64,000 nt of DNA, from positions 2,480,001 to 2,544,000 of the forward strand of contig CP152408.1 in NCBI GenBank assembly GCA_038961845.1, given 5' to 3'. The position numbers and the translations under genes are program-made. Source of the stretch: Xylophilus sp. GW821-FHT01B05. GTDB taxonomy: Bacteria; Pseudomonadota; Gammaproteobacteria; Burkholderiales; Burkholderiaceae_C. This document shows positions 4,601-63,100 of the stretch, piece by piece. Each line of letters opens with the position of its first letter. The first letter of the stretch is position 1. Under the pieces are notes generated by a model. That model did not search any database. It saw nothing but the letters and a program-made list of their open reading frames with translations, and was not told the DNA's origin.

Positions 4601-5609
4601 CGAGCTGGGCACCAAGGCGCGCGGCGCCTTCCAGGCGCTGGCGGGCTTGCGCGTGGCGGAATCAAAATCTGAGCCGAATATGCCTCTAGCCCAGGTCCCA
4701 CCTGGGCAAGTAGCTATAAAAAATGCAGCAAAGGCTGCAGCGCCACCCGCCGCGCCGGCCGAGCAGCGCTACACCGCCTGGACTTTCGGCGAGCTGCCCG
4801 AGCTGATGGAAATCCGCAAGGGCGGCCAGACCCTGGTCGGTTTCCCGGCGCTGATAGACGCACAAGACGCCGTGCGCATCGAAGTCTTCGACGAGCCCGA
4901 GATGGCCGCCGCGCGCCACCGCGCCGGCCTGCGCCGCCTGTTTTCTCTGCAGATCAAGGACGCGCTCAAGTACCTGGAAAAGAACGTGCCCGATCTGCAG
5001 AAGATGGCCGTCGCCTACATGCCGCTGGGCACGCAGGAAGAGTTGCGTGCGCAGATCCTCGATGTGGCACTGGACCGCGCCTTCCTGCTCGACCCGCTGC
5101 CCACCAACGCCGCAGACTTCAAAAAGCGCATGGACGAAGGCCGAGGCCGCCTGACGCTCATCGCCAATGAAGTTGCGCGCCTGGCCGCCGGCGTGCTGGC
5201 CGAATACGCCACCGCCGCCCGCAAGATCAAGGACACCAAGATCCAGCCCGACGCCGTGGCCGACGCCCAGCAACAATTGCAGCGCCTGGTACCCAAGAAC
5301 TTCCTGGCCGCCACGCCCTGGCCGCAGCTGCAGCACATGGTGCGCTACCTGAAGGCGATCACGCTGCGCCTGGACAAGCTGCGCGCCGACCCGGCGCGCG
5401 ACGCCCAGCGCCTGGCCGAGCTGCGCCCGCAAGAGCAGCGCTACTGGCGCCTGGCGGCAGAGCGCAAAGGCCAGGTCGATGCGCGCATGCAAGAGCTGCG
5501 CTGGCTGCTGGAGGAACTGCGCGTGAGCTTCTTCGCGCAAGAGCTGCGCACGCCGCAGCCGGTCAGCGTCAAGCGGCTGGACAAGGCCTGGGCCTTGCTG
5601 AACAGCTGA
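1626..5609 (+). CDS. hrpA: ATP-dependent RNA helicase HrpA (DEAH box)
   Basis: 1327-residue DEAH/RHA helicase, close to the usual HrpA length of about 1300. Motifs seen: Walker A GETGSGKT (37-44), DEAH (141-144), SAT (173-175), the QRAGRCGR arginine-finger motif, then helicase-associated, OB-fold and long C-terminal DUF3418 regions. HrpA acts on mRNA and in rescue of stalled ribosomes. ATG 1626 is preferred over an in-frame GTG at 1605 because it fits family N-termini; the ribosome site is weak for both. Oddity: bases 4665-4730 are a copy of the dispersed palindromic repeat, read in frame and adding about 22 residues near position 1018 (NMPLAQVPPGQVAIKN). The stop overlaps the next start (TGATG), implying translational coupling to pabBC. 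Confidence 0.97.
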   Translation: MAPVTLLIEFPESLPVSARRDEIRAAMEAHQVVIVCGETGSGKTTQLPKIALQMGRGKLGKPPGQGRLIGHTQPRRIAASSVAKRIAEELKTPLGDVVGFKVRFQDRLSKDASVKLMTDGILLAETQTDPLLKAYDTIIIDEAHERSLNIDFLLGYLREILPRRPDLKIVVTSATIDADRFAQHFASKNGPAPIIYVSGRTFPVEQRYRPFEESRDYGLDEAIADAVDELWQDPRQSGDILVFLPGEREIREAADHLRKHLSHQPVMRSAEVLPLFARLSQAEQDRIFDGHTGRRIVLATNVAETSLTVPGIRYVVDAGTARVKRYSFRSKVEQLLVEPISQAAANQRAGRCGRVADGICIRLYDEKDFTGRPRFTDPEILRSSLAGVILRMKSLHLGDVARFPFLEAPSGRAIADGYQLLGELGAVDEANELTEVGRQLSRLPLDPRIGRMILEARDRGALEEVLVIASALSVQDVRDRPMELQTQADQAHAKFDDDKSEFSGYLKLWKWLDDARGGHAPATRREMAVASGAPQKRASAAVLPIAQRMAPPPVILQPAAPATHRISNRQYEQLLRQNFVNVRRVREWRDIHSQLLTVVNEQKWVFNRQPASYEDLHKAMLAGLLGNIGWKPEDEDVYVGARGIKFYRHPGAHLSKKPGRWIVAAELVETSRLYGRGIANIEPTWLEEVGAHLLKKQLLDPHWEKRSAEVVAFERATLYGLVVYSGRRMVYGRVDMAYAREIFIREALVGTEWETKLPFLAANRKLIRQVEELEHKARRQDVLVDDELIYAFYDQQLPADVFNGHGFEQWFRQASREKPDLLLLSRDELMRHEAAGITGNAFPRSLRLGGVDCSATYLHAPGDAKDGLSVAVPLFVLNQVSEDRCDWLVPGMLRDKVQALLKSLPQKPRARLVPLPESATRITEQLSAPEVFGHGALVDALLKVVREITQLDVKRADFKPDMVSPHLFMHLRVVDEHARQLGAGRSLAALKAELGTKARGAFQALAGLRVAESKSEPNMPLAQVPPGQVAIKNAAKAAAPPAAPAEQRYTAWTFGELPELMEIRKGGQTLVGFPALIDAQDAVRIEVFDEPEMAAARHRAGLRRLFSLQIKDALKYLEKNVPDLQKMAVAYMPLGTQEELRAQILDVALDRAFLLDPLPTNAADFKKRMDEGRGRLTLIANEVARLAAGVLAEYATAARKIKDTKIQPDAVADAQQQLQRLVPKNFLAATPWPQLQHMVRYLKAITLRLDKLRADPARDAQRLAELRPQEQRYWRLAAERKGQVDARMQELRWLLEELRVSFFAQELRTPQPVSVKRLDKAWALLNS
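4665..4730 (+). repeat. Dispersed palindromic repeat, copy A, in frame inside hrpA
   Basis: Core reads TAGCCCAGGT-CCC-ACCTGGGC followed by AAGTAGCTATAAA. The inverted arms CCAGGT/ACCTGG form a hairpin. It matches copy B at 9523-9590 over the stretch ATGCCTCTAGCCCAGGT. It is read through without a stop as part of hrpA, next to the DUF3418 region. Its lower GC content and the Ala/Pro-rich linker beside it suggest a tolerated insertion in an inter-domain loop. Confidence 0.85.
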
Positions 5610-7342: not shown

Positions 7343-7442
7343 CGCAGGTCGCGCAGGTGACGCGCGCACCAGGGTTTCAGGGCCGGCCCCAATGCCGGTC
7401 CACCGACGCAACGTTAGGCTAGGGCGCTGCAAAGGAGACCTC

Positions 7443-9131: not shown

Positions 9132-9154
9132 CGACGCACAACGGGAGGATCTTC

Positions 9155-9522: not shown

Positions 9523-9590
9523 GGGTTTTGAGGGAAATATGCCTCTAGCCCAGGTGCAGCCTGGGCTTATAGCTATCTATTTGATAGTTG
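9523..9590 (+). repeat. Dispersed palindromic repeat, copy B, between convergent genes
   Basis: Reads AAATATGCCTCTAGCCCAGG, then TGCAGCCTGGGCTTATAGC, then TATCTATTTGATAG. Inverted arms GCCCAGG/CCTGGGC and a second small palindrome CTATC/GATAG are visible. It lies between the 3' ends of the DUF1304 gene (+) and the DUF1439 gene (-), so a bidirectional terminator role is plausible. Confidence 0.85.
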
Positions 9591-17134: not shown

Positions 17135-17192
17135 TCAGCAGCGCCTGGCCTTCGGTGCTCGGCGGAAAAATTCGGAGCTGAGTCATGCCAAA

Positions 17193-17282
17193 AACACCGC
17201 GGAACTGGCTTTGCCAGGCCGCAGGTGTTGCCCCCTCGAAGGGGGGAGGCGAAGACACGAAGTGCGTAGCCTGGGGGTGGTC
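17193..17282. repeat. Intergenic palindromic repeat with two hairpins (second repeat family)
   Basis: First hairpin 17193-17229: outer stem AACACC-GCGG with CCGC-A-GGTGTT and inner stem CTGGC-TTT-GCCAG. Second hairpin 17231-17245: CCCCCT-CGA-AGGGGG. A tail ends in CCTGGGGGTGG. The block lies between the convergent Uma2 (+) and Bug (-) genes. It resembles an intergenic repeat I associate with Comamonadaceae genomes (from memory, not checked). Only one copy was noticed in this window. Confidence 0.6.
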
Positions 17283-18254
17283 CTAATCCATCCGCGCGCC
17301 CGACGCCTTCACCGCCTCTTGCCAACGCGGCGTCTCCGCCGCCAGGAACTGCGCGAAGTCCTCGCTGCCCAGGAAGGCCGGGTCGGCGCCCTGGGTCACC
17401 ATGCGGCTGCGCAGTTCGGGCTGGGACAGCACCTGGCGGAAGGCATCGCTGAGCCGGGCGACTACGTCCTTGGGTGTGGCGGCGGGGGCCATGAAGCCGT
17501 AGAAGCCCACCACCTCGAAATTCTTCAGGCCCGACTCGATGGCGGTTGGCACGTCGGGCAGGGCGGGGTTGCGCTCGCGGCTGGTGACGGCCAGCGCGCG
17601 CACCTTGCCCTGCTTGGCGTAGCTGGCGGCCTGCGGGATGGATTCGGCCATGAACTGCACCTGGCCGCCCATCAGGTCGGTGAAGGCCGGCGCGCTGCCA
17701 CGGTAGGGAATGTGGACCATGAAGGTGCCGGTGGCGTTCTTGAACATCTCGGGCACCAGGTGCGAGATGCCGCCGTTGCCGGCCGAGCCGTAGTTGACCT
17801 TGCCGGGGTGTTCCTTGGCATAGGCGATGAAGTCCGGCAGTGTCTTGACCGGCACGGCGTTGTTCACCAGCAGCGCCAGTGGCTGCTGGGCCGTGCGGGC
17901 GATGGGCACAAAGTCGCGCAGCGTGTTGTAGGGCAGGCGCTGGTAGAGCGCGCCGTTGATCACCAGCGCGCCGGTGTTGCCCAGCATCAGGGTGTAGCCG
18001 TCGGGCGTGCTCTTGGCCACGAACTCTGCGCCTACCGAGCCGCCGGCGCCGGGCTTGTAGTCCACGAGGATGGGCTGGCCCAGCACCGCCTGCAGCCGGT
18101 CTGACAGCAGGCGCGCGTGCTGGTCCAACGGGCCGCCTGCGGGGAAACCGATCACGACCTTGATCGGTTTGTCGGGGTAGGCCGCCAGCGCCTGCTGGGC
18201 GGCACCAAGGCCCAGGGCGGCCAACAGGGGGAGCAGAACGGTCTTCAGGCGCAT
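17283..18254 (-). CDS. Bug-family tripartite tricarboxylate transporter substrate-binding protein (TctC-like)
   Basis: 323 residues with a Sec signal peptide (about 1-24, ending QQALA). The mature start AYPDKPIKVVIGFPAGGPLD is the family hallmark, followed by the AGAGGSVGAEFVAKSTPDGY-like region (here VDYKPGAGGSVGAEFVA) and HVPYRG-type HIPYRGSAPAFTDLMGG. Bug proteins bind carboxylates or aromatic acids in the periplasm; betaproteobacteria often have dozens, many without a linked TctAB, as here. The ribosome site AGGAGAC just upstream is partly inside a hairpin (18258-18282). Confidence 0.93.
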   Translation of the reverse strand: MRLKTVLLPLLAALGLGAAQQALAAYPDKPIKVVIGFPAGGPLDQHARLLSDRLQAVLGQPILVDYKPGAGGSVGAEFVAKSTPDGYTLMLGNTGALVINGALYQRLPYNTLRDFVPIARTAQQPLALLVNNAVPVKTLPDFIAYAKEHPGKVNYGSAGNGGISHLVPEMFKNATGTFMVHIPYRGSAPAFTDLMGGQVQFMAESIPQAASYAKQGKVRALAVTSRERNPALPDVPTAIESGLKNFEVVGFYGFMAPAATPKDVVARLSDAFRQVLSQPELRSRMVTQGADPAFLGSEDFAQFLAAETPRWQEAVKASGARMD

Positions 18255-18302: not shown

Positions 18303-19682
18303 TCAGTCTGCCTCTTCAGGCGCCTCTGCCGCCCCGGCACGCGGGTGCCGCACGCCGGTAACGATGCGCGCCGGCCGGTGGTAGCGGAAATAGGCCGTGG
18401 CCCAGTCGGCCAGCACCGCTACCCGGTTGCGGAAACCGATCAAAAACCAGATGTGGGCAAACAGCCAGAACAGCCACGCCAGCGTGCCCGAGAAGCGGAT
18501 CGGCCCCATGGGCGAGGCCAGATCGACCACGGCGGCGCGGCGGCCGATGGTGGCCAGGTTGCCGTAGTCGGCGTAGCGAAACGGCTGGCCGGTGCTGCCG
18601 GCCAGGCGCCGCAGGATGTTGGCTGCGGCGGTGCGGCCCATCTGCTTGGCCCCGGGTGAGACGCCCGGCACTGGTGCAGGCTCTTGCCCGGGGACGTAGC
18701 TCTTGGCGGCGGCCAGGTCGCCGATCACGCTGACTTCCGGGTGGCCGGGCAGCGATAGATCAGGCTCGACCACGACGCGGCCGGCGCGATCGATCTGCGC
18801 GCCCGTGGCCTCGCCCAGCAGGCGGCCCAGGGGCGAGGCGGCCACACCGGCGGCCCAGATCATGCATTTGCTATTGATTCGGTAGCTACTTGCCAAGGTC
18901 CCACCTGGGCTGGAGGGCGATTCGACCTGTAAACCATCGGCATCGATCTGGGTCACCCGGGCGCTGGTGCGCACCTCTACCCCCAGGCGCTGGAGCTGCT
19001 CGCGTGCGCGCTCGCTCAGGGCTTCGGGGAAGGCCTGCAGCACGCGCGGGCCGCCTTCCACCAACAGCACCTGGGCGCTGGCCGGGTCGAAGTTGCGGAA
19101 CTCGCCCGGCAGCGTGCGCCGTGCAATCTCGGCCAGGGTGCCGGCCATTTCCACGCCGGTGGGGCCAGCGCCCACCACCACGAAGGTGAGCCAAGCGGCG
19201 CGCCGGGCGGGGTCGGTTTCTTTTTCTGCGGCCTCAAAGGCCAACAGCACGCGGCGGCGGATGGCAAAGGCATCGTCCAGCGTCTTCAGACCGGGCGCGT
19301 GCTCGGCCCATTCGTCGTGGCCGAAGTAGCCGTGGGTGGCGCCTGCGGCGACGATCAGGTGGTCATAGCGCAGCTCGCCGCCGTCGGCCAGCGCCAGCGA
19401 GCGCGCGGTCGGGTCTATGCCCACCACCTCGCCCAGCAGCACCGTGGCATTGGCCTGGCGCCGGAACAGGTGGCGGATGGGTGCGGCGATAGAGGGCGCG
19501 GCCAGGCCGGCGGTGGCGACCTGGTAGAGCAGGGGCTGGAACAGGTGGTGGTTGTTGCGGTCCACCAGGGTGATGTCCACCGGCGCAGCCTTTAGCGCGC
19601 GGGCGGCTTCCAGGCCGCCAAAGCCGCAGCCGATGATCACGATGTGGGGGCGCTGCGGGGTGGTGGGAGCGGGTTCGGTCAT
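18303..19682 (-). CDS. ndh: Type II NADH dehydrogenase / NAD(P)/FAD-dependent oxidoreductase
   Basis: 459 residues. The FAD Rossmann motif IIGCGFGGLEAA is at the N-terminus and the second nucleotide motif VVGAGPTGVEMAGTL lies near residue 170. It also carries VSVIGDLAAAKS and a C-terminal hydrophobic membrane-anchoring segment (LAWLFWLFAHIWFLIGF). It transfers electrons from NADH to quinone without proton pumping. Start 19682 (MTEPAP) is preferred; ATG 19694, four codons upstream, is equally in frame. Oddity: residues about 256-272 (SPGGTLASSYRINSK) are encoded by a copy of the palindromic repeat inserted in frame before the conserved MIWAAGV. Confidence 0.93.
   Translation of the reverse strand: MTEPAPTTPQRPHIVIIGCGFGGLEAARALKAAPVDITLVDRNNHHLFQPLLYQVATAGLAAPSIAAPIRHLFRRQANATVLLGEVVGIDPTARSLALADGGELRYDHLIVAAGATHGYFGHDEWAEHAPGLKTLDDAFAIRRRVLLAFEAAEKETDPARRAAWLTFVVVGAGPTGVEMAGTLAEIARRTLPGEFRNFDPASAQVLLVEGGPRVLQAFPEALSERAREQLQRLGVEVRTSARVTQIDADGLQVESPSSPGGTLASSYRINSKCMIWAAGVAASPLGRLLGEATGAQIDRAGRVVVEPDLSLPGHPEVSVIGDLAAAKSYVPGQEPAPVPGVSPGAKQMGRTAAANILRRLAGSTGQPFRYADYGNLATIGRRAAVVDLASPMGPIRFSGTLAWLFWLFAHIWFLIGFRNRVAVLADWATAYFRYHRPARIVTGVRHPRAGAAEAPEEAD
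18868..18917 (-). repeat. Dispersed palindromic repeat, copy C, in frame inside ndh
   Basis: On the minus strand it reads AGCCCAGGTGGGACCTTGGC, then AAGTAGCTACCGAATCAATAG. It matches copy A (GCCCAGGTCCCACCTGGGC, then AAGTAGCTATAAA) but is read in a different frame, still without a stop. The inverted arms are partly decayed (CCAGGT/ACCTTGG). Confidence 0.8.
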
Positions 19683-19745
19683 GTGGGGAATCATGCACCA
19701 GCGCTCTTGCCGGCTGCAACAAACCGTTGGGTTTAAGCTCGACGC

Positions 19746-21005: not shown

Positions 21006-21077
21006 CGGAAATTTGAAGAAAAAGTGCCTGTAGCCCAATACCTGTCTGGGCTATTAGCTATTTATTCGATAGCTAGC
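21006..21077 (+). repeat. Dispersed palindromic repeat, copy D, between convergent genes
   Basis: Reads CGGAAATTTGAAGAAAAAGT, then GCCTGTAGCCCAATACCTGT, then CTGGGCTATTAGCTATTTAT and TCGATAGCTAG. The left part CGGAAATTT-AAGAAAAAGTG is shared with copy F, and TAGCCCA/TGGGCTA is the central hairpin. It lies between uspA (+) and the SDR gene (-), five bases from the latter's stop. Confidence 0.88.
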
Positions 21078-32736: not shown

Positions 32737-32847
32737 TCCCTCCCGGCGCCGCCGGGGGAGACTGCTGCGCCACCTGCAGCCGCCCAGCCATGCTGGAGGC
32801 GGGGCCCCACGCCGACCGGCTGCGGCCCGGTGCCACCGGGGTCATGC

Positions 32848-32939: not shown

Positions 32940-33199
32940 ATGAACTCTAGTGTCGCGTCAAGCATGATCTGCCGGTGTGCGCTTGCCCTCGCCGCGCATC
33001 GCTGCGTTGCAGCCCTTGCCCAGGCGTAAAGCCTGGGCGGCGGCCTGCGCCTTGCGCTGCACGCCGATGCCTTCGCACCCATCCGTCACCTCACGCTTGA
33101 CACGACACTAGCCTTCTCGCCCCGCCCGCCGCACTCCGCACTCTGGCCCTGACGTTGCTGGCAGGCGTTGCCGGCGCGGCCCAGGCCGGCACCCTCACG
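32940..33199 (+). pseudogene. Remnant of a secreted-protein gene, split by a MITE and cut by an IS
   Basis: ATG 32940 (AAGG nine bases upstream) is followed by codons for Met-Asn-Ser, then a 165-bp inverted-repeat element at 32947-33111, then an open frame encoding SLLAPPAALRTLALTLLAGV and AGAAQAGTLTQ. Joining the flanks at one copy of CTAG gives an uninterrupted frame with a classic Sec signal peptide ending GAAQA. The frame then runs into the left end of an insertion sequence at 33200, and no continuation is recognisable after its right end at 34424. The signal peptide resembles that of the intact beta-helix protein nearby. Function unknown. Confidence 0.65.
32947..33111. mobile_element. 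MITE-like 165-bp element with 17-bp terminal inverted repeats
   Basis: Left end CTAGTGTCGCGTCAAGC (32947-32963) and right end GCTTGACACGACACTAG (33095-33111) are inverted repeats matching at 16 of 17 positions. The interior has a perfect hairpin GCCCAGGC-GTAAA-GCCTGGGC. It carries no transposase gene. CTAG at both borders could be the target duplication or TA-type insertion, as in IS630/Tc1 relatives; that family link is inference. Confidence 0.65.
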
Positions 33200-34424: not shown

Positions 34425-34462
34425 GTGGCACGAAGATGGCGCTAGCCAATCAATAGCTGCAA

Positions 34463-34522
34463 GCCGGCATATATCCTGCACTTCAGGTACTTTTGTACCT
34501 GAAACGAAGGATATGCACCGGC
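34463..34522. repeat. 60-bp imperfect palindrome upstream of the beta-helix gene
   Basis: Left arm GCCGGCATATATCCT then GCACTTCAGGTAC; right arm, reverse complemented, GCCGGTGCATATCCTT then CGTTTCAGGTAC. The centre is a perfect 9-bp stem TTCAGGTAC-TTTT-GTACCTGAA (34482-34503). It lies 38 bases after the IS right end and about 105 before operator site 3. The 34425-34627 gap holds no other feature that I recognise apart from a CAATAGCTGC fragment resembling the dispersed repeat. Confidence 0.7.
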
Positions 34523-34627
34523 ATAGCGCTATGTTTTTTTGATTCTCTGCATACAGCGCCGGTTCACGCTTGGTACGCAAGGCCGGCGAGAACGCCTCGC
34601 AGCCACCGCGTCGGCCAGGCAGCGGCC

Positions 34628-34644
34628 TACCTAGTTTCGGGGAT
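34628..34644 (+). promoter_or_regulatory. Candidate operator site 3, upstream of the beta-helix protein gene
   Basis: TACCTAGTTTCGGGGAT, 75 bases before ATG 34720. It matches sites 1 and 2 in TACCT, TT, C, GG and AT at the same spacing, though it lacks the GCAAAT extension and its right arm is weaker. Same orientation relative to the downstream gene as the other two. Confidence 0.45.
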
Positions 34645-34719
34645 GTACAGCTTGTTGCAAGCTGGGCAGCATCGGCGGCATTGGCGTGTCCATCCCGGGC
34701 GCGCGCGCAGGACCGTCCC

Positions 34720-36792
34720 ATGCCCGCCTTGCACCGCTTCCTCATCCCCCTGGCCCTGCTGCTGGGCCTGCACGGCGCCGCCCAGGCCGCCATCTGCCGC
34801 GTGGCCGCCGACGGCAGTGCTGACGCCGACGCCGCCGCCGACGGCAGCAGTTGGACCCCGGCCACCACGCTGCAGGCGGCGCTGGGCAATGCCAACTGCG
34901 ACGAGATCTGGGTCCAGCAGGGCCTGTACAAACCCACCACCGACGACGACCGCACGGTCAGCTTTGCCATCAACCGCCCGCTCAAGCTCTACGGCGGCTT
35001 CACCGGCCGGGAAACCGCGCTGGCAGAGCGCAGCGGCGATAGCAGCAGCACCACGCTCTCGGGCGACATCGGAACGGAGGGCGACAGCAGCGACAACAGC
35101 TACCACGTGCTGGTCATAGGCGGGACGGACCGCACTACCGGCAACGGCAGCTACACCAGCGCCGATACCGTGGTCGATGGCTTCACGGTGACGGCGGGGC
35201 GGGCGAATGGGGGGGGCTCCAACAACTGGGGCGGCGGCCTCTACTGCAATGGCCGCGGGGCGGGCAGGGTGTGCAGCCCGTTGCTGACCGGGCTGGTCTT
35301 CCAGGGCAATGCAGCCACCTACGGCGGGGCGATCCTCAACGATGGCGACTCCGGCAGCAGCAGCCCCGCCATCACCAACACCACCTTCAGCGGCAATTCA
35401 GCCACCACCTACGGCGGGGCGATCTACAACTATGGCGACTCCGGCGGCAGCAGCAGCCCCGCCATCACCAACACCACCTTCAGCGGCAATTTAGCCGCCT
35501 ACGGCGGGGCGATCTACAGCTATGGCAACTCCAGCGGCAGCAGCAGCCCCGCCATCACCAACGCCACCTTCAGCGGCAATTCAGCCGTCTACTACGGCGG
35601 GGCGATCTACACCGTTGGCGGTGGCTCGACCACCAGCCGCCCCAGCGTGACCCGCTCGGTGTTCTGGGGCAATACGGCTGGCAGAGGTCCCCAGGCGTGG
35701 ACTAGTAGCAACGCCCAGATCACCTTCAACAACAGCCTGATCCAAGGGGGCTGCGCCAGCGATGGTGACGGCGGCGGCGGCGGTGCGTGCCCCGGCCCCG
35801 GCCCGCTGTTGACCGCTGACCCGCTACTCGGCCCCCTGCAGGACAACGGTGGCCCCACGCCCACCATGCTGCCGGCGGCCAATAGCCCGGTCATCGATGC
35901 GGGCGGCGCCTGCACCGGTAGCGACCAGCGCGGCGTGGCCCGCCCGCAGGGCAGTGCCTGCGATCTGGGTGCGGTGGAGCGGCGACAGGGCAACTACACA
36001 CTGGACGTTGCCGTGACGGGCGCAGGCAGTGTCAGCGCGGGGGCTGCGCCTGTGCCCGCTGTAGGCAGCATCACCAACTGCACAACTGCCGGTGGTGCGG
36101 CCTGCACGGCCGGCTATGCGATCGACTCCACGCCCGCAGCCAGCGTCACCTTGACCGCCACGCCCGATGCGGGCGCGACCTTCCTCGGCTGGGGCGGTGC
36201 CTGTATCGGCACCGGCACCTGCACCGTCACGATGGACCAGGCGCGCAGCGTGACCGCCAGCTTCGTCCTCAGCAGCTTCACCGGCGGCTTGCCTGGTGGC
36301 GGCAATGCCACGGCGGCGCTGGCGGGGGGAGGCGCGGGCTGCACGCTGGTGCCCGGCAACACCGGCTTTGCCAGCCCGGCCAGCACGCCGCCGGGGGTGA
36401 GCTTCCCGCAAGGGGTGTTTGCCTTTAGCGCCAGCGGCTGCACCGCCGGCAGCAGCGTGACCTTGACACTGACCTACCCGCAAGCCCTGCCGGCCGGGGC
36501 GCAGTACTGGAAGTTTGGCCCCACGGCGGCCAATGCCACGGCGCACTGGTTTGTGCTGCCGGGCGCCACGATCAATGGCAACACCGTCACCTTCAGCATC
36601 ACCGACAACGGCGACGGCGACTCTGACCCGGCCCCGGGCAGCATCACCGACCCGGGCGGCGTGGGCGTGCTGGCCGTGGCCGGCGGCGGCGTGACCGCGA
36701 TCCCGGTGGATGCGCCGTGGATGCTGGGGCTGTTGACGCTGTTGCTGGGCGGGGCGGCCTGGCGTGCCAAGCGGGTGGGCTTGCGGCGTTAA
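34720..36792 (+). CDS. Secreted parallel beta-helix protein with choice-of-anchor-U-like region and IPTL-like C-terminal anchor
   Basis: 690 residues from ATG 34720, chosen because it starts a clean signal peptide (HRFLIPLALLLGLHGAAQAA); the longer frame from 34570 buries it. Residues about 170-330 are right-handed beta-helix repeats of the type TYGGAIYNYGDSGGSSSPAI and TNTTFSGNSA. Then come an InlB/Big-like module (VTLTATPDAGATFLGWGG, CTVTMDQARSVTASFV), a region like choice-of-anchor U (QYWKFGPTAANATAHWF, ITDNGDGDSDPAPGSITDPG) and a C-terminal IPVDAPWMLGLLTLLLGGA helix plus basic tail, resembling IPTL-CTERM sorting signals but with Val-Asp in place of Thr-Leu. Likely a surface protein. Its stop overlaps the convergent gene's stop (TTAA). 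Confidence 0.85.
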   Translation: MPALHRFLIPLALLLGLHGAAQAAICRVAADGSADADAAADGSSWTPATTLQAALGNANCDEIWVQQGLYKPTTDDDRTVSFAINRPLKLYGGFTGRETALAERSGDSSSTTLSGDIGTEGDSSDNSYHVLVIGGTDRTTGNGSYTSADTVVDGFTVTAGRANGGGSNNWGGGLYCNGRGAGRVCSPLLTGLVFQGNAATYGGAILNDGDSGSSSPAITNTTFSGNSATTYGGAIYNYGDSGGSSSPAITNTTFSGNLAAYGGAIYSYGNSSGSSSPAITNATFSGNSAVYYGGAIYTVGGGSTTSRPSVTRSVFWGNTAGRGPQAWTSSNAQITFNNSLIQGGCASDGDGGGGGACPGPGPLLTADPLLGPLQDNGGPTPTMLPAANSPVIDAGGACTGSDQRGVARPQGSACDLGAVERRQGNYTLDVAVTGAGSVSAGAAPVPAVGSITNCTTAGGAACTAGYAIDSTPAASVTLTATPDAGATFLGWGGACIGTGTCTVTMDQARSVTASFVLSSFTGGLPGGGNATAALAGGGAGCTLVPGNTGFASPASTPPGVSFPQGVFAFSASGCTAGSSVTLTLTYPQALPAGAQYWKFGPTAANATAHWFVLPGATINGNTVTFSITDNGDGDSDPAPGSITDPGGVGVLAVAGGGVTAIPVDAPWMLGLLTLLLGGAAWRAKRVGLRR
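35314..35613 (+). repeat. Tandem coding repeats (87, 93, 90 bp) in the beta-helix gene
   Basis: Near-identical units start at 35314, 35401 and 35494, with a partial fourth at 35584. Each contains TACGGCGGGGCGATC, then GGCAGCAGCAGCCCCGCCAT and ACCTTCAGCGGCAATT. Units differ by single codons, so lengths are multiples of three. Such tracts expand and contract by recombination and change the number of helix coils. Confidence 0.9.
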
Positions 36793-37771: not shown

Positions 37772-38425
37772 ATGAAGAAGCCCAGCACCGGCGAAGCCGC
37801 GCCGCGCATGCGCAAACAGCCCACGCAGCCGCGCGCGCAGCGCACCATAGAGACCATTTTTGACGCCACTGCTCAGATTGTGGAGAGCGAAGGCGAGGGC
37901 GCCTTGACCACCAACCGCATTGCGCAGAAGGCGGGCTTCTCCATTGGCACGCTCTACCAGTACTTCCCGTCGAAAGAGGCGGTGCTGGTGGCCATGATCC
38001 ACCGCCAGCGCGACAAGGTGCAGCAAGAGCTGCAGTCCATGCTGGACCGCGCCGTGGCCGAGCGGCGCGAGGTGCGGGCCACCGTGCGCGAGCTGGTGCG
38101 GCTGCTGGTGCAGGCCTTTGGCGGCACCTCGCGGCCACGGCGCGCCTTCATCCGCATGGCCTGGCGGCTGGACCACCACGACAACATCACCCAGGCGCTG
38201 CGCGAAGGCGCAGACCGCAACGCCATGGCACTGGCGCAACTGATAGACACCGGTGAAGCCCCAGGCGTGCGCCCGCCCAACCCGGCCATGATGTTTGTCA
38301 TCACCCGCGCGGTGATGGGCGCGATCCGCAGCGCTTCGCTGGAGGATTCACCGCTGCTGGGCACGCCGGCTTTTGAAGACGAGCTGGTGCGCATGGTGTG
38401 GGGGCTGCTGCGATCGGAAATTTAA
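37772..38425 (+). CDS. TetR-family transcriptional regulator
   Basis: 217 residues. The N-terminal HTH (about 22-68) includes TIETIFDATAQIVESEG, RIAQKAGFSIGTLYQYFPSK. The C-terminal ligand domain is not assignable. CAGGAG precedes ATG 37772. Divergent from the PF10118 hydrolase gene, its probable target. Oddity: the last codons and stop (RSEI, TAA) lie within the left end of palindromic repeat copy F (CGGAAATTTAAAG), so the repeat has replaced the original gene end. Confidence 0.93.
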   Translation: MKKPSTGEAAPRMRKQPTQPRAQRTIETIFDATAQIVESEGEGALTTNRIAQKAGFSIGTLYQYFPSKEAVLVAMIHRQRDKVQQELQSMLDRAVAERREVRATVRELVRLLVQAFGGTSRPRRAFIRMAWRLDHHDNITQALREGADRNAMALAQLIDTGEAPGVRPPNPAMMFVITRAVMGAIRSASLEDSPLLGTPAFEDELVRMVWGLLRSEI

Positions 38426-38480
38426 AGAAAAAGTGGCTGTAGCCCAGGTGTAGACTGGGCTATTAGCTATCAATTCAGGA
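38412..38480 (+). repeat. Dispersed palindromic repeat, copy F, overlapping the tetR stop
   Basis: Reads TCGGAAATTTAAAGAAAAAG, then TGGCTGTAGCCCAGGTGTAG, then ACTGGGCTATTAGCTATCAA. The left 20 bases match copy D at all but one or two positions. The central hairpin is TAGCCCAG/CTGGGCTA. It lies between tetR (+) and the AhpD-like gene (-) and supplies the tetR stop codon. Confidence 0.88.
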
Positions 38481-38481
38481 G

Positions 38482-39063
38482 TTAAGCCTTCTTCTCGCGC
38501 GGCAGCCGGCCCATTAGAAAAAATTCTGCATTGGGCTGCATGCCGGTCACGCTGGCGATGCGGTTCGACAGCCCGAAGAAGGCGGTGATGGCGGTGATGT
38601 CCCAGATGTCTTCGTCATCAAAACCATGGGCATGCAGCGCGGCAAAGTCGGCGTCGTCCACCGCGTGCGACTGGTCGCAGACCTTCATGGCAAAGGCCAG
38701 CATGGCGTGCTGGCGCGGGGTGATGTCGGCTTTGCGCCAGTTGACCGCCACCTGGTCGGCCACCAGCGGCTTCTTCTCGTAGATGCGCAGCAGCGCGCCG
38801 TGCGCCACCACGCAGTACAGGCACTGGTTGGCCGCGCTGGTGGCGGTGACGATCATCTCGCGGTCGCCCTTGCTCAGGTGGCCTTCTTCCTTTTCCATCA
38901 AGGCGTCGTGGTAGGCGAAGAAGGCTCGCCACTCGGCCGGCCGGCGCGCCAGTGCCAGGAACACGTTGGGGATGAAGCCGGCTTTCTCTTGCACCGCAAG
39001 GATGCGGGCGCGGATGTCGTCGGGCAGCTTGTGCAGTTCGGCAAGCGGGTAGCGGCTGGTCAT
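38482..39063 (-). CDS. Peroxidase-related / carboxymuconolactone-decarboxylase-like protein (AhpD fold)
   Basis: 193 residues of the AhpD-like family. The redox motif CLYCVVAHG gives Cys81, Cys84 and His88, the CxxC-x3-H pattern of alkylhydroperoxidase-type members. Further features are the N-terminal GFIPNVFLALARRPAEWRAF and the C-terminal MQPNAEFFLMGR. It should have thiol peroxidase-type activity, but the partner reductant is unknown. Convergent with tetR across repeat copy F. Confidence 0.88.
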   Translation of the reverse strand: MTSRYPLAELHKLPDDIRARILAVQEKAGFIPNVFLALARRPAEWRAFFAYHDALMEKEEGHLSKGDREMIVTATSAANQCLYCVVAHGALLRIYEKKPLVADQVAVNWRKADITPRQHAMLAFAMKVCDQSHAVDDADFAALHAHGFDDEDIWDITAITAFFGLSNRIASVTGMQPNAEFFLMGRLPREKKA

Positions 39064-40184: not shown

Positions 40185-41651
40185 ATGAGCAAGAAGAATG
40201 ACCGTAGCCCCAAGCTGACCACGGCGTCTGGCATCCCGGTAGCCGACAACCAGAACTCGCAAAGCGCAGGCCCTCGTGGCCCGGTGCTGCTGCAGGACTT
40301 TCACCTGATCGAGAAGCTGCAGCACTTCAACCGCGAGCGCATCCCCGAGCGCGTGGTGCATGCCAAGGGCTCGGGCGCCTTTGGCACCTTCACCGTCACC
40401 CACGACATCAGCCAGTACACCAAGGCCAGGCTGCTCGACAAGGTGGGCAAAACAACCGAGACCTTTCTGCGCTTCTCTACCGTCGGGGGTGAGAAAGGCA
40501 GCGCCGACACCGAGCGCGACCCACGCGGCTTTGCGCTGCGCTTCTATACGGAAGACGGCAACTGGGACCTGGTGGGCCTCAACGAGCCGGTGTTCTTCAT
40601 CAAGGACGGCATCAAGTTCCCGGACTTCATCCACACGCAAAAGCGCGACCCGCAGACCAACCTGAAGTCGCCGCAAATGAAGTGGGACTTCTGGAGCCAT
40701 GCGCCCGAATCGACGCACAAGGTCACCATGCTGTACAGCGACCGCGGCACGCCCGACGGCTATCGCCACATGGACGGCTTTGGCACCCACACCTTCAGCC
40801 TGATCAATGCTGCGGGCGAGCGGGTCTGGGTCAAGTGGCACCTGAAGACCCAGCAGGGCATCAAGAACCTGAGCGCCGACGAGGCCAAACGCCTGGCCGG
40901 CAGCGACCCGGACTACGCCCAGCGCGACCTGTTCAACGCCATCGCCGCCGGCCGTTTCCCCAAGTGGGATGTGGCGATCCAGGTCATGACCGAGGCCGCC
41001 GCCGTGGCCTGGGAAAAGAAGACCGGCTGGAACCCCTTCGACGTGACCAAGGTCTGGCCGTATGGGGACTTCCCGCGCATCCCCGTGGGCGTGCTGGAAC
41101 TCAACCGCAACCCCGACAACTACCACGCCGACGTGGAGCAGGCCGGCTTCTCGCCCGCCAACATCGTGCCCGGCCTGGGCTACAGCCCGGACAAGATGCT
41201 GCAAAGCCGCTTGTTTGGCTACCACGACGCCCAGCTCTACCGCGTGGGCACCAACCACCAGCACCTGCCGGTGAACAGCCCGCGCTGCCCCTTCCACAAC
41301 CAGCAGCGCGACGGCGCCATGGCCACGTCGGTCAGCAACGACCACTCGGCCAAGAACTACGCCAACGTCCAGGCCGCCGGCACCGACACCACCGGCTTTG
41401 GCCACGGCGACCCGGGCTGGGCACTGCAGGGCACAGCGGGCTACTACGACGAGCGCGGCCAGTCGGATGACTTCACCCAGGCCGGCAACCTGTACCGCCT
41501 GCTGAAGCCCGACGCGCAAGACCGCCTGACCACCAACATCGCCGACGAATTGAAGGAAGTGACCAAGGACGTGCAAGACCTGCAGGTCTCGCACTTCACC
41601 AAGGCCGACCCGGCCTATGGCGCGGCCGTGGCGCGCAAGCTGAAGAGGTAG
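40185..41651 (+). CDS. katA: Heme catalase (small-subunit monofunctional)
   Basis: 488 residues, small-subunit catalase size. Catalytic His59 (RVVHAKGSGAFG) and Asn133 (GLNEPVFFIKD), and proximal heme ligand Tyr346 in RLFGYHDAQLYR, are intact. It disproportionates hydrogen peroxide in the cytoplasm. AGAGGAGC precedes ATG 40185. No OxyR-type site was recognised in the 89-base leader. Its TAG stop is the TAG of repeat copy G (GGTAGCTATT), so the repeat abuts or forms the gene end. Confidence 0.97.
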   Translation: MSKKNDRSPKLTTASGIPVADNQNSQSAGPRGPVLLQDFHLIEKLQHFNRERIPERVVHAKGSGAFGTFTVTHDISQYTKARLLDKVGKTTETFLRFSTVGGEKGSADTERDPRGFALRFYTEDGNWDLVGLNEPVFFIKDGIKFPDFIHTQKRDPQTNLKSPQMKWDFWSHAPESTHKVTMLYSDRGTPDGYRHMDGFGTHTFSLINAAGERVWVKWHLKTQQGIKNLSADEAKRLAGSDPDYAQRDLFNAIAAGRFPKWDVAIQVMTEAAAVAWEKKTGWNPFDVTKVWPYGDFPRIPVGVLELNRNPDNYHADVEQAGFSPANIVPGLGYSPDKMLQSRLFGYHDAQLYRVGTNHQHLPVNSPRCPFHNQQRDGAMATSVSNDHSAKNYANVQAAGTDTTGFGHGDPGWALQGTAGYYDERGQSDDFTQAGNLYRLLKPDAQDRLTTNIADELKEVTKDVQDLQVSHFTKADPAYGAAVARKLKR

Positions 41652-41712
41652 CTATTAAATAGATAGCTATAAGTCCAGATGCAATAAGGGCTAGAGGCCT
41701 ATTTCTCTTAAA
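41647..41712 (-). repeat. Dispersed palindromic repeat, copy G, supplying the katA stop
   Basis: Reads GGTAGCTATTAAATAGATAG, then CTATAAGTCCAGATGCAATA, then AGGGCTAGAGGCCTATTTCT. It is in the opposite orientation to copies B, D, F and H, and close to copy I (TAGCTATC, then AGGTGCAACAAGGGCTAGA). The TAG of its first TAGCTAT is the stop codon of katA. Confidence 0.85.
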
Positions 41713-41856
41713 TTGCGGCCAGCCTTGCAAAAGGCTGTGCCGCAAAGCCCTTGATGCGGGCTGGTTCTATCGGTCGCCGCTGTCAGCTGCCCGTGCTACC
41801 GTGCCCTTCACCTCGCCGTAGAACTGCTCTTCACGGTGAGCCTCTTTGGAGGAGAC

Positions 41857-43752: not shown

Positions 43753-43759
43753 CATGGCC

Positions 43760-43798
43760 GTTCGCCCTGAGCCTGTCGAAGGGCTTCGACAAGCTCAG
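43760..43798. repeat. REP-like palindrome interrupted by an IS
   Basis: Left part GTTCGCCCTGAGCCTGTCGA, then AGGGCTTCGACAAGCTCAG. Its remainder, CCCGAACGG, is found at 45539-45547 on the other side of the IS. The stems CCTGTCGAAG/CTTCGACAAG and the outer GTTCG/CGAAC make a typical chromosomal REP hairpin. The intact form would be 48 bases. Confidence 0.75.
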
Positions 43799-45533
43799 AA
43801 GGTGTGAACGAATATCCGCCCCCGTGCGTTGATAGCGAATGGCCAACGCAAGCAACGCCCCCAAGACATCCGAACAAGCGGCCCTGTTCCACGAAGCGCC
43901 CGCAGATGGCGCCGTAGTTGCAACGCCACGGCCAGCAAAGCCGGCGCACACAGCAGGCACGCCACGCCTGCTGCACGCCGATCGCCAGCAGATCGAGCTA
44001 CGCCCCTGCGACCTCGATGCCCTTGTCGCCGCAGACCATCCCGCGCGCAGCGTCTGGGCTTTTGTGCAGGCGCTGGACCTCGCGCCGCTCTACGCCCAGG
44101 TCAAGTCGGTGCAAGGCTCGGCCGGCGCACCCGCCATCGATCCGGCCATCCTCATGGCGCTGTGGCTGTGGGCCACCGTCGAGGGCGTGGGCTCGGCCCG
44201 CGAGATCGACCGGCTGTGCGAGCGCGACGACATCTACCGCTGGCTCTGCGGTGGCGTCGGGGTCAACTACCACACGCTGGCGAGCTTTCGCACAGCCAAC
44301 ACCGAATGGCTCGATGCGCAACTCACCCGCAGCATCGCCGCGCTCATGGAGCGCAAGCTGGTCACGCTCGACGTAGTCGCCCAGGACGGCCTGCGCGTTC
44401 GCGCCCACGCCAAGGCCTCGAGCTTCCGGCGCAAGGAGCGCCTGGGCGAGCTGCATGCCTTGGCGCTCGCCCAGGTCAACGCCCTCAAGAGCGAACTCGA
44501 GGCCGATGCGGGCGCCAGCACGCGGCGCAAGGCCGCCGCGCGCGAACGCGCCGCACGGGAGCGCGAGGAGCGCCTGGCCCGGGCACTGCAGACCTTCGGC
44601 GAGATCGAGCGGGGCGCACTCGACAAGATCAAGAACAAGGCCAGTGCGCGTGCCAGGCGAGGCAAGTCTGGCCAGGCCCCAGTAGGTGATAGCCCCGCCG
44701 GGGATGCTCCCAGCGCCCTGCCCGAACCCGACGCCCCACCTGCCGAGCCACGCCCCGCCAGCGGCGAGGCGCAGCCGAAGTCCAGCGCAGGCGCGCCCAA
44801 GCGGGTCAGCACCACGGATGCAGACGCCCGGGTGATGAAGATGGCCGACGGAGGATTCCGTCCGGCCTACAACGCGCAGGTGCTGGTGGACGAGGCCACG
44901 CAGTTGATCGCCGGTATCGCGGTGGTCTGCGCGGGCAGCGATATGCATGAGATGGCGCCCATGCATCGCCAGATCGAGCAGCGCTACGGCCGCACGCCCA
45001 CGCACTGGCTGGCCGATGGTGGCTACCCCCAGTACGACGCACTCGAGGAACTCAGCCGTCGCGGCACGCAGCCGGTGGTGCCGCCCTCGCGCAGCCGCAA
45101 ACCTGGCTTCGATCCGCTCAGCCCCAAGGCCAGTGACTCACCGTTGATTGCGCAGTGGCGCGCGTTCATGGCCAGTGACGAGGGCCAGAAGCTCTACAGG
45201 CGCCGCGCCGCAAGTATCGAATGCGCCAATGCGCAGCTCAGGCGACGGGGCTTGTACCGCCTGAATGTGTGCGGCAAGTTGAAGGCACGCGCGGTGCTGC
45301 TGTGGCACGCGCTGGCGCATAACTTGATGCGCATGCGCTCGCTGGGGTTTGCGCTCGGGGGGTGAACTGAGCGCGCTTGCAGGCTCGCCCTGCAGCCTCC
45401 ACAAGGCCCCCAAGACTGCGGCTGGGCGCTCTGGGACCTCCGAGAGGCCAGGAGCTCGCCCCGCCCCGTTCAATTGGCCACCGCGGCCTTCAAGCCGCCT
45501 GTTGGCGCATGGGAGTTGATTTTTTCACGCCTT
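43799..45533 (+). mobile_element. IS1182-family insertion sequence in a REP-like palindrome
   Basis: 1735 bp. The left end AAGGTGTGAACGAAT and right end (reverse complement AAGGCGTGAAAAAAT) are imperfect inverted repeats, 12 of 15. CTCAG flanks both sides (43794-43798 and 45534-45538) as a target duplication. It contains one intact transposase gene. Joining the flanks restores the REP-like palindrome, showing where it landed. It sits between the AcoR-type activator and DUF779. Confidence 0.8.
43839..45365 (+). CDS. IS1182-family transposase
   Basis: 508 residues, intact. N-terminal DUF772-like region (AIDPAILMALWLWATVEGVG, YRWLCGGVGVNYHTLASFR), first catalytic Asp in VVAQDGLRVRAHA, a long charged coiled-coil insertion (about 205-310), second Asp in THWLADGGYPQYDAL and C-terminal Glu in IECANAQLRRRGLYR. 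The uninterrupted frame suggests recent arrival or continued activity. The 233 bases after it (45366-45598) are the IS right end and the restart of host sequence. Confidence 0.93.
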   Translation: MANASNAPKTSEQAALFHEAPADGAVVATPRPAKPAHTAGTPRLLHADRQQIELRPCDLDALVAADHPARSVWAFVQALDLAPLYAQVKSVQGSAGAPAIDPAILMALWLWATVEGVGSAREIDRLCERDDIYRWLCGGVGVNYHTLASFRTANTEWLDAQLTRSIAALMERKLVTLDVVAQDGLRVRAHAKASSFRRKERLGELHALALAQVNALKSELEADAGASTRRKAAARERAAREREERLARALQTFGEIERGALDKIKNKASARARRGKSGQAPVGDSPAGDAPSALPEPDAPPAEPRPASGEAQPKSSAGAPKRVSTTDADARVMKMADGGFRPAYNAQVLVDEATQLIAGIAVVCAGSDMHEMAPMHRQIEQRYGRTPTHWLADGGYPQYDALEELSRRGTQPVVPPSRSRKPGFDPLSPKASDSPLIAQWRAFMASDEGQKLYRRRAASIECANAQLRRRGLYRLNVCGKLKARAVLLWHALAHNLMRMRSLGFALGG

Positions 45534-45598
45534 CTCAGCCCGAACGGTATGGTGTCGTGAACGGTTCTTGCCGAAGGAACGCAATTGGGTATGGGCCG

Positions 45599-53211: not shown

Positions 53212-53275
53212 GGATTTTTAAGGAAAAAGTGGCTTTAGCCCAGGCCACGCCTGGGCTTATAGCTATCATTTTTAA
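53212..53275 (+). repeat. Dispersed palindromic repeat, copy H, between convergent genes
   Basis: Reads GATTTTTAAGGAAAAAGTGG, then CTTTAGCCCAGGCCACGCCT, then GGGCTTATAGCTATCATTTT. The hairpin is GCCCAGGC-CAC-GCCTGGGC, the most perfect of the family. Between scoB (+) and dmeR (-), with flanking A and T tracts, it looks like a bidirectional rho-independent terminator. Confidence 0.88.
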
Positions 53276-53287
53276 TTCTGCGCATCC

Positions 53288-60126: not shown

Positions 60127-60132
60127 GCCGCC

Positions 60133-63100
60133 ATGAGCCTCTACCGCCTGCCGCCACGGCCACCAAGCGCCCCCGTACCGCCGGCCTACGCAGAGCTGCA
60201 CTGCCTGAGCAACTTCAGCTTTCAGCGCGGCGCCTCGCACCCGCATGAGCTGGTGGAGCGCGCCCATGCGCTGGGCTATAGCGCGCTGGCCATCACCGAT
60301 GAATGCTCGGTGGCCGGCGTGGTGCGCGCGCACCTGGGCCTGCGCGATCACCTGGCAGAGTGCGCCGCGGCCCAGCCCGCCAATGACACACCGCTGCGCC
60401 TAATTTTTGGCAGCGAGTTCGCCTTCCCCGATGCCGGCTTTCGCCTGGTGGCGCTGGCGCGCGACATCGACGGCTGGGGCAATCTGTGCGAGTTCATCAC
60501 CGCCGCGCGCTGCAGCGGCGCCGCCAAGGGCGACTACCGCGTGGACCTGGGCCGCCGCAACGCCCGGCTGCTGCGCGGCTGCGAGCTGCTGTATGTGCCC
60601 AATCGCCTGCCAACGGATGCTATTGATACCGTAGCTATCAGCCTAGGTGCAACAAGGGCTAGATCCATATTTGACCAAGAATTATGGCTGGCGGCCGAAC
60701 TGCACCAGCAGATGGACGACGCACTCTGGCTGGCCGCACTGCAAGAGGCCGGCGCCGCGCACGGCCTGCCCCTGGTCGCGGCGGGCGACGTGCATATGCA
60801 CCGGCGCTCACGCAAGCGCCTGCAAGACGTGCTGACGGCAGTGCGCCAGGGCCGCAGCGTGGCCGATTGCGGCTTTGCGCTGCAGCCCAGCGCCGAGCGC
60901 CATCTGCGCCCGCGCGATCAACTGGCCAGCCTCTACCCGTCCGCGCTGTTGGCCAACACGCTGGAAGTAGCCCGGCGTTGCCGCTTCGACCTGGAAGAAA
61001 TCAAGCCGCGCTACCAGTACCCGCATGAAAACGTGCCCGGCGGCGAGACGCCCATGCAGACCCTTACCCGCCTGGCCTGGGCTGGCGCGGCCGAGCGCTA
61101 CCCCACGGGCGTGCCAGACAAGATCAAAGCCAACCTCGACAAGGAACTGGCCCTGATCGACGAGCTGGACTACGCCATGTTCTTCCTCACCGTGGACGAC
61201 ATCGTGCGCTTTGCGCGCAGCCAGAACATCCTGTGCCAGGGCCGTGGCTCGGCTGCCAACTCCACCGTCTGCTACTGCCTGGGCATCACCGCGGTCGACC
61301 CGGCCAACAGCCATCTGCTGTTTGAGCGCTTCGTCAGCCGCGAGCGGCGTGAGCCGCCTGACATCGACGTCGACTTCGAGCACCAGCGGCGCGAGGAGGT
61401 GATCCAGTACATCTACCGCAAATACGGCCGCGAGCGCGCCGCCATCGCCGCCGTCGTCATCTGCTGGCGCACCCGCAGCGCGCTGCGCGACGTGGGCAAG
61501 GCGCTGGGTGTGCCGCCAGCGCTGGTGGACGAGTTCGCCAAAGACCACTACTGGTTCGACGAAAACCTGCAGGCCGAGCGCCTGCAAGAGGCGGTGGCGC
61601 GCGCAGGCCTGCCGGTGGCGCCCGGCCTGCTCACGCTGTGGCTCGGGCTGACGGCCCAGTTGAAGGGCTTCCCACGCCACCTGAGCCAGCACGTGGGCGG
61701 CTTTGTGCTGACCCAGGCCAAGCTCACCCGCCTGGTGCCGGTAGAAAACGCCAGCATGAAGGAGCGCTCTATCGTCCAGTGGGAAAAGGACGACCTCGAA
61801 GCCATGCACATGATCAAGGTCGACGTGCTGGCGCTGGGCATGCTCAGTGCGCTGCGCCGTGGCCTGGACCTGGTCAACCACTGGCGCGGCACGCAATGGG
61901 CGCTGCACAACCTGCCGGCAGAAGACCCCGCCACCTACGACATGATCTGCGCCGCCGACACCGTGGGCGTGTTCCAGATCGAAAGCCGGGCCCAGATGTC
62001 CATGCTGCCGCGCCTGCAGCCACGTACCTATTACGACCTGGTGGTGGAAGTCGCCATCGTGCGGCCCGGCCCCATTCAGGGCGGCATGGTGCACCCCTAC
62101 CTGCGGCAGCGGGCGCGGCTGCGCAAGGGCGACAAGATCGAGTACGAGTACCCAGCGCTCAACGACGCGCTGGAGCGCACCCTGGGCGTGCCCATCTTCC
62201 AGGAGCAGGTGATGCAGATCGCCATGATCGCCGCCGGCTTCACGGCTGACGAGGCCGACCGCCTGCGCCGCTCCATGGCGGCCTGGAAGCGCAGCGCCGG
62301 CATCTCGGCCTTCCACGACAAACTGGTCGAAGGCATGGAAGCCAACGGTTATGAGCGCAGTTTTGCCGAGCGCCTCTTCAAGCAGATCGAGGGCTTTGGC
62401 GAATACGGCTTCCCCGAGAGCCATGCCGCAAGCTTTGCCCAACTGGTGTACGTCAGCAGCTGGCTCAAATGCCACGAGCCCGCCGCCTTCCTGGCCGCGC
62501 TGCTGGATTCACAGCCCATGGGCTTCTACTCGCCCTCGCAGCTGGTGCAAGACGCGCAGCGCCACGGCGTGGAGGTGCGGCCGGTGGATGTCACGGCGAG
62601 CGATTGGGACTGCACGCTGGAGCCCGCCGCGCCAGACGCTGCCCAGCCCGCCGTGCGCCTGGGCCTGCGCCGCGTCGGCCAGTTGAGCCAGGCCGGCGCA
62701 CAGCGCCTGCTGGCCGCGCGCGCCAAGGCGCCCTTCACCAGCACCGAAGACCTGGCCCAGCGCGCCCGGCTGGAGCCGGCCGACCTGCGCGCGCTGGCCG
62801 CAGCCGATGCCTTGCTGCCGCTGTCCGGCCACCGCCGCCAACAGGTCTGGGACGCCACCGCCCAGCAGCGCACGCCCGCGCTGCTGCAGGATGCGCCGGT
62901 AGACGAGGCGCCGCTGCTCTTGCCCCAGGCCGGGGAGGGCGAAGAGATCGTGGGCGACTACGCATCGCTGGGCCTGAGCCTGCGCCGCCACCCGCTCGCA
63001 CTGCTGCGCCCACGGCTGGCGCGCATGCAACTGCTCACCGCCCAGCAACTGCGCAACGTGCCGCACGGCCGCAGCGTGCGCGCCTGCGGCATCGTCACCA

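Follow-up and report, generated by a model that had tools for sequence, protein, structure and literature searches.

In a 64,000-nt stretch of the chromosome of Xylophilus sp. GW821-FHT01B05 (CP152408.1, positions 2,480,001 to 2,544,000; hereafter the window), we identified ten copies of a short repeat that is best read as a non-autonomous hairpin element of about 66 nt, similar to the repetitive extragenic palindromic (REP) sequences of other bacteria. The element occurs in hundreds of copies in this genome, recurs across the family, lies mostly just past gene ends, differs in presence between close species, carries stems that change from lineage to lineage, leaves no detectable target duplication and, in this genome, is polar with respect to replication. 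We tentatively favor the view that its spread took place at replication forks, in single-stranded form, through a putative HUH/Y1-type (or similarly acting) enzyme, a joint reading that includes the REP-like identity and that we rate as possible rather than probable. Many bacteria carry short palindromic repeats, whose spread and purpose are still argued. Through this element, the spread of small gene-free elements can be studied, as one family combines three handles: empty and filled sites in close species, stems that change between lineages at orthologous places, and one clearly polar chromosome. Taken together, these handles make both the idea of a replication-coupled, single-strand route and the part played by REP-associated tyrosine transposases (RAYTs) directly testable.

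Copies were called with a 66-nt profile built from the host's own genome (G000) at E ≤ 1e-3, in a sample of 80 stretches of 20 kb plus the window (1.664 Mb of the 5.83-Mb chromosome). The profile gave 169 matches, 168 of them non-overlapping, while the reversed-sequence control of the same 1.664 Mb gave none at E ≤ 1 and 6 at E ≤ 10; extrapolation leads to about 590 copies per genome. Genome-wide, the core pattern with up to 3 mismatches occurred 140+121 times and never in controls, and the element accounts for all of the top 30 over-represented 10-mers in the sample. The preliminary description had listed nine copies in the window; all nine are present, at most 7 bases from the starts given there, and the profile adds a weaker tenth. 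The shared core that it proposed held in part. Arms TAGCCCAG and CTGGGCTA, 7 nt apart, fit all nine copies if up to 2 mismatches are allowed in each arm, whereas the full core with a gap of 4 and at most 3 mismatches fits only 6/9 and a gap of 3 fits none; the arms also fit three further places in the window (12 in total), and the tenth copy does not fit them. The lower GC content noted there was borne out (mean 0.44 over the 168 copies against 0.67 in the window), and the element is indeed non-autonomous, since 66 nt is too short for a gene.

The consensus in G000 is TTTTGAGTGAAAAATGCCTCTAGCCCAGGTGCCGCCTGGGCTTTTAGCTATCTATTTAATAGCA. In the forward direction, an A-rich edge is followed by a 9-bp GC hairpin (arms TAGCCCAGG..CCTGGGCTA, loop of 5 nt) and then by an AT hairpin, GCTAT-N7-ATAGY. 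The near-invariant columns are GCT (47-49), AAA of the A-rich edge (10-12, 98-100% conserved) and AG (61-62). All of these lie outside the GC stem, which is more variable than the GCT and AG columns, and GCT and AG are nearly invariant in other genera too. Columns that change so little resemble what a recognition signal would show, and we count this in favor of spread by an enzyme. Folding of four copies as DNA, on both strands, gave z values from -2.0 to -5.0. On the forward strand, the AT hairpin of the G000 copies contains 149 G-T against 54 A-C cells, in agreement with the column frequencies, and this tolerance of G-T is only a hint. A known Rfam RNA family was rejected, as the window contained no match at the gathering score.

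The orientation of the element follows replication in G000. The GC skew of this chromosome switches sign near 2.65 Mb, and the contig has a DnaA-like Walker motif 540 nt from its start. Among the near-exact copies (100 listed of 101), 76 are in the leading orientation (p=1.8e-7), with 46/57 exact-core sites on "+" in the right arm and 30/43 on "-" in the left arm. Outside the sampled stretches, 51/66 are leading (p=1e-5); it should be noted that the idea of polarity first came from a listing of G000 sites that had a strand bias, so that the later G000 counts do not test it in full independence. Over both strands, 106/168 profile copies are leading, as are 58/82 of the strong ones (≥50 bits) and 48/86 of the weak ones. 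The polarity thus belongs to the consensus-like copies and not to gene direction: strong copies are polar and weak ones are not, only 726/1509 genes (48%) are leading, and of the strong copies with convergent neighbors, a setting of symmetric transcription, 29/37 are leading. The consensus-like polar copies are presumably young, and the forward strand of the element would be the lagging-strand template.

Target-site duplications were rejected: for the 100 copies of at least 45 bits, the direct-repeat score at the borders equaled that of shuffled pairs, and a weak 9-nt overlap was seen at one of the two empty sites that 167 contexts yielded. It is the polarity, the hairpins and the missing target duplication that make us favor a single-strand route at the fork. 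We also count for it the high copy number without coding capacity and the presence/absence differences between close species. According to this scenario, the two hairpins would form at the fork, on the template of the lagging strand, where an HUH/Y1-type or similarly acting enzyme, supplied in trans, would cut, copy or re-join them without duplicating the target. Copies would then persist chiefly in the largely harmless positions just past stop codons or, if in frame, within tolerant parts of proteins, and subfamilies with new GC stems would arise at times and expand, giving each lineage its own dialect. The single-strand route, the enzyme and a role of selection, rather than targeting, in the gene-end placement are what we infer here.

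Placement was scored with gene calls from our own codon-usage caller. By gene context, the 168 copies comprise 55 in convergent, 75 in co-directional and 9 in divergent intergenic regions, 27 in genes and 2 at stretch ends, while intergenic length alone predicts 19.2, 84.8 and 35.0 for the first three classes. A copy lies within -20 to +30 nt of 129 of the 1509 gene 3' ends and of only 24 gene 5' ends, and the median distance from border to stop codon is 15 nt (87 ends) and 5 nt (98 ends). The same tendency was seen in other family genomes, in which 116 copies from 40 stretches comprise 20 convergent, 50 tandem, 8 divergent, 34 in-gene and 4 edge cases, against intergenic lengths of 18.4 kb convergent, 71.0 kb tandem and 28.1 kb divergent. 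Such figures would also be expected of a gene-end hairpin useful to the host (a 3' end stabilizer, RNase barrier, terminator or protein-binding site) that selection keeps or re-makes, with the dialects tracking a changing recognition factor. Read on the reverse strand, the element also presents a hairpin followed by a conserved TTT, and occupancy was kept at 5/7 comparable window sites despite changes of stem. The orientation data do not fit this explanation well, however. In tandem gene pairs, the preference with respect to transcription is not significant (72 vs 53, p=0.11), and a unidirectional terminator finds no support in the orientation counts. Terminator-like sites between 37500 and 54000, a segment that includes three copies, are near the shuffled rate (13 vs 11.3), and the only one inside a copy is a short 5-bp stem at 41688. 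In-gene copies are found in both orientations (14 and 13), the stem arms barely covary within G000, and replication polarity is not predicted. We consider a host-useful hairpin somewhat unlikely as the explanation of the element. Regarding the in-gene copies (26 examined), 12/13 in the opposite orientation are in phase 0 and 8/13 in the same orientation are in phase 1, a preference that selection alone can explain because the remaining frames of the consensus hold stop codons.

A search with fixed flanks and a free core found the element in 50 of 150 family genomes, 31 of which have at least 10 sites (maximum 319; controls at most 5 per genome), in line with the link to Comamonadaceae made in the preliminary description; G000 has the second highest count among the 150. 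Same-genus genomes gave 189 sites against 4 in controls (G001), 99 against 3 (G002), 233 against 4 (G005, Xylophilus sp. ASV27) and 89 against 7 (G006). Two others, G003 and G004, have 4 and 2 sites, below their controls (10 and 9), and the element is practically unrecognizable there, which suggests that it was lost in the G003/G004 branch. Lineages have their own dialects of the GC stem, which differ even at orthologous sites: CCAGG..CCTGG in G000 and G005, GCCGGCG..CGCCGGC in G001 and G002 and, most often among the stems observed in other genera, GCGCTT..AAGCGC. In the GTDB collection, the exact CCAGG pattern had matches in Xylophilus sp. ASV27 alone (7 stretches), with the reservation that records near the host's own genome may be omitted. 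On plasmids, a GCGCTT-type copy was found in one record (Diaphorobacter) and a CCAGG-type copy in none; the search of phages with the GCGCTT type gave no match, and IMG/VR yielded 10 contigs with one match each to the GCGCTT pattern and none to the CCAGG pattern. Within genomes, arms are mosaic: 13 of the 21 CCTT-type 5' arms shown are paired with the usual CCTGGGC 3' arm. Covariation within a genome was rejected as a proof that the stem is under selection, since most pairs are at the independence value; the lowest shuffle counts were 4/1000 (pair 12-22) and 29/1000 (6-28) in G000 and 35/1000 (12-22) in other genomes. These stem counts leave out copies that do not fit the 36-nt frame (10/168 in G000 and 16/116 in other genomes). 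Of note, one stretch of G149 (C1:1575001-1595000) contains, at about 2.5-15.5 kb, 13 profile matches in a row on one strand, mostly weak and partly spaced by about 320 nt.

Seven of the ten window sites could be compared with at least some same-genus relatives (Table 1), those at 32844, 34439 and 41649 having no aligned relative locus. Five are shared, in each case with G005 and one or more of G001, G002 and G006; the other two appear private to G000. The family is therefore old and has also moved. The idea of a spreading element in the preliminary description is thus upheld as far as empty sites exist (53215, 9525 and 21010), but not for the 5/7 comparable sites that are shared with other species, mostly with another stem.

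The changes of stem may reflect another process. Because of the mosaic arms, the stem differences at shared sites and, more weakly, loops found in both orientations, rewriting of hairpins in place is possible. One version does without an enzyme altogether: hairpins on the lagging strand would provoke template switching or ectopic gene conversion, by which cores or single arms would be copied between elements and new sites seeded now and then. It would account for the mosaic arms, for stems that differ at orthologous sites within similar flanks, and for the replication polarity and the missing target duplication. A loop test pointed the same way. Loops were typed by hand from rows with a GCTT..AAGC stem and from 78 of the 100 G000 polarity sites, three G149 sites readable on both strands were counted once, and controls were column-shuffled. 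The 78 G000 loops formed 72 ordered pairs of a loop and its reverse complement, against 15.2 in shuffles (0/5000 as high), and 14 distinct loops were paired, against 7.4 (118/5000 as high). However, identical loop pairs also exceed the shuffles (312 vs 99.6), so the loops are not independent and the pair statistic is inflated, and the distinct-loop count is unremarkable in G149 (4 vs 2.8) and in other genomes (2 vs 0.7, 1447/5000 as high). Moreover, we know of no documented process in which template switching alone seeds hundreds of unlinked sites. Enzyme-free spread and homogenization therefore appears unlikely to us. A related conjecture, which we regard as quite improbable, is a transposase-free hairpin coupled to replication: the fork would copy a hairpin or one arm between sites, a new stem would sweep the occupied sites of a lineage by molecular drive, and polarity would record the direction of replication.

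Several observations weigh against enzyme-driven spread of single strands at forks, and they concern the polarity, the age of the sites and the enzyme. In addition to the non-polar weak copies of G000, G150 shows a weak trend in the opposite direction, at 26/37 sites (15/23 on "-" in the right arm, 11/14 on "+" in the left; Fisher p=0.017), a genome in which 88/142 genes of the sampled stretches are leading. The exact-core polarity counts cover 100/101 sites in G000 and 37/37 in G150, and G149, which has no clear GC skew, stayed outside the comparison. The element is common to species at five window sites, so movement must be slow, and, among the loci compared, an empty site was found for only 2/167 contexts. 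Finally, the motif-free DnaE-like genes of G003 and G004 are nearly as long as the one carrying the copy at 60617, whereas a clean insertion would give a difference in length; decay or overwriting may thus have occurred there instead of clean absence.

The search for an enzyme belongs with these points. G000 has no Y1_Tnp (PF01797) match at E ≤ 0.001, although 5/14 control genomes do. The domain occurs in 111/150 family genomes, mostly as a single match, but four genomes with at least 10 elements (G001, G069, G124 and G170) are not among them. The preliminary description had envisaged a transposase whose presence correlates with copy number, and for Y1/RAYT genes this found no support: 26/31 genomes with at least 10 elements have a match, against 85/119 others (p=0.18), a comparison that assumes that both counts drew the same 150 genomes and in which 19 genomes without a match are not named. 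At 20 RAYT-like loci of relatives, the element lies within 700 bp in only 5, and on one side only, while other motifs, of the GGGGTCAGA and GGGGACACAT types, recur by the RAYT-like genes. By eye, in these 20 loci, GGGGTCAGA/GGGGACACAT-type motifs stand downstream in nearly all and the GGGGTCAGA type stands upstream in many. A terminal motif, GGGGWSAS, has been reported for tyrosine transposases unconnected with REPs (PMC3733652), and the GGGGTCAGA/GGGGACACAT-type motifs fit it. A RAYT as the present-day mobilizer is not supported, in view of the lack of a match in G000, the lack of significant correlation with counts and RAYT loci that the element never flanks on both sides. The RAYT-like genes at these loci (L088-L107) are mostly single-copy and often lie ahead of a gene starting MTTAAE or MTKAAE.

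The element might nevertheless descend from a REP family once mobilized by a RAYT (Y1_Tnp) gene that G000 has since lost. The wide occurrence of the domain in the family and in the element-rich genomes is consistent with such a past, as is the close relative G005, which has only a weak match (3.6e-4). Still, the domain is also frequent in element-poor genomes, RAYT genes are accompanied by other motifs, and the copy at 53215 is private to G000 among seven genomes even though G000 has no Y1_Tnp match. We find this history very improbable.

The element behaves like a REP. REPs are proposed to be mobilized by RAYT enzymes, and the text of the REP survey reports that they favor convergent and co-directional gene ends, with some copies inside genes, many of them replication or repair genes (PMC3733652). 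Many copies, short palindromes, 3' extragenic placement and some in-gene copies are shared with the GTAG-type REP and REPIN (REP doublet) systems that accompany RAYTs in Pseudomonas and E. coli (PMC3733652). In contrast to these, the Xylophilus unit consists of two dissimilar hairpins in 66 nt, as compared with REP repeats of 20-40 bp (PMC3733652), and it combines a host without a RAYT match, RAYT loci of relatives that are not flanked on both sides, lineage dialects of the stem and replication polarity. The GTAG tag is not conserved either: the column before TAG at the GC stem holds C43 G29 T23 A3, and the 3' hairpin has ATAG and GTAG in about half of the copies each. A second class, the CGTC REPs, which include the Rickettsia elements, has no known transposase according to the same survey (PMC3733652). 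Its members are also palindromic and have in-frame copies in protein genes (PMC3733652); unlike them, our element belongs to another taxon, has another sequence and lacks the CGTC end in the profile columns, and the in-gene frame preference was measured for the Xylophilus element only. As both the GTAG and CGTC tags are absent, we file the element in neither class.

Transposition of IS200/IS605 elements leaves no target duplication. Their HUH enzymes use the lagging-strand template (PMC6006769), and our element is similar to them in its hairpins, in the absence of a target duplication and, as we read its polarity, in the template used; unlike them, it has no transposase gene inside or linked. 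Closer in taxonomy is the Beta-proteobacterial repeat element (BRE), a short repeat between and within genes reported in Comamonadaceae and Bordetella, the Bordetella copies having on average 69% GC and 75-91 bp, sometimes a tandem arrangement and at most 29 repeats per genome (PMC3110155). Identity with BRE was rejected as far as that text tells, since size, GC (44% here) and number (about 590 here) differ, a distinction that rests on the textual description and not on sequence (PMC3110155). Acidovorax, Delftia, Comamonas, Variovorax and Polaromonas are all absent from the main text of the REP survey (PMC3733652). We recognized no earlier description of the repeat in our searches of the open-licence literature.

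The DNA uptake sequences of Neisseria also form species dialects and palindromic pairs near gene ends, a likeness that our element shares. This function was rejected, as the 10-mer CTAGCCCAGG occurs only inside elements (40/40) and, with the elements masked, none of their 10-mers is among the 30 most over-represented. The shorter TAGCCCAGG has, as a raw count, 48/130 of its occurrences outside elements.

In the window, five copies lie on each strand, and use both within genes and between genes, as claimed in the preliminary description, was confirmed with our gene calls (3/10 and 7/10, Table 1). The copy at 38419 is the only one in which both 8-nt arms are perfect.

Table 1. Copies of the element in the window and the state of the same locus in same-genus relatives; gene functions from Pfam where so marked.
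Positions	Strand	Bits	Setting	Relatives
4666-4731	+	48.3	Inside reading frame of HrpA-like DEAH helicase/DUF3418 gene (1626-5609 +; Pfam)	G005 with CCAGG-type stem; G001, G002, G006 with other stems; not recognizable in G003/G004
9525-9590	+	66.4	Near-consensus; between convergent genes, 10 nt past stop codon ending 9514	Empty in G001 and G006; G005 with other upstream neighbor, no element; G002-G004 unaligned
18868-18933	-	38.0	Degenerate; inside reading frame of NDH-2 type oxidoreductase gene (18303-19694 -; Pfam)	Common to G005, G001, G006, G002; G003/G004 18 nt shorter there
21010-21075	+	55.0	Between convergent genes	Present in G005; other stem in G002; only AT hairpin recognizable in G001; absent in G003, G004; G006 not scored
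32844-32909	-	39.1	Degenerate; intergenic, ~37 nt from 168-bp repeat resembling a miniature inverted-repeat transposable element (MITE)	
34439-34504	-	29.4 (E=9.6e-7)	Tenth copy; weak; core does not fit arms	
38419-38484	+	56.1	Overlaps end (38425) of TetR-type regulator gene, faces CMD-family gene (Pfam)	Occupied in G005; with other stems in G001 and G006
41649-41714	-	51.0	Own TAG is stop codon of catalase gene (40185-41651 +; Pfam)	
53215-53280	+	55.0	12 nt past stop codon of CoA-transferase gene	Absent behind orthologous gene in 6/6 (G001-G006)
60617-60682	-	43.9	Degenerate; inside reading frame of DNA polymerase III alpha type (DnaE-like) gene (60133-63378 +; Pfam)	Motif (by eye) in G005, G001, G002, G006; coding sequence of nearly equal length, motif-free, in G003/G004

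The window also contains other repeats. The MITE-like repeat (32947-33112; 165-170 bp) has terminal inverted repeats CTAGTGTCGCGTCAAGC..GCTTGACGCGACACTAG and recurs in at least 24 other places of the genome with 89-99% identity. A dispersed repeat of about 80-120 nt at 17173-17303 gave 52 BLAST matches, its own included, in the 1.664-Mb sample and is also found in G005. The weak tenth copy lies at the start of a block (34425-36781) with paralogs of 80-94% identity at several places of the chromosome, and tandem repeats of about 90-93 nt occupy 35312-35677 within an open reading frame. Finally, a block of about 1.79 kb at 43758-45552, which is 99-100% identical at no fewer than 7 other chromosomal places, is probably an insertion sequence.

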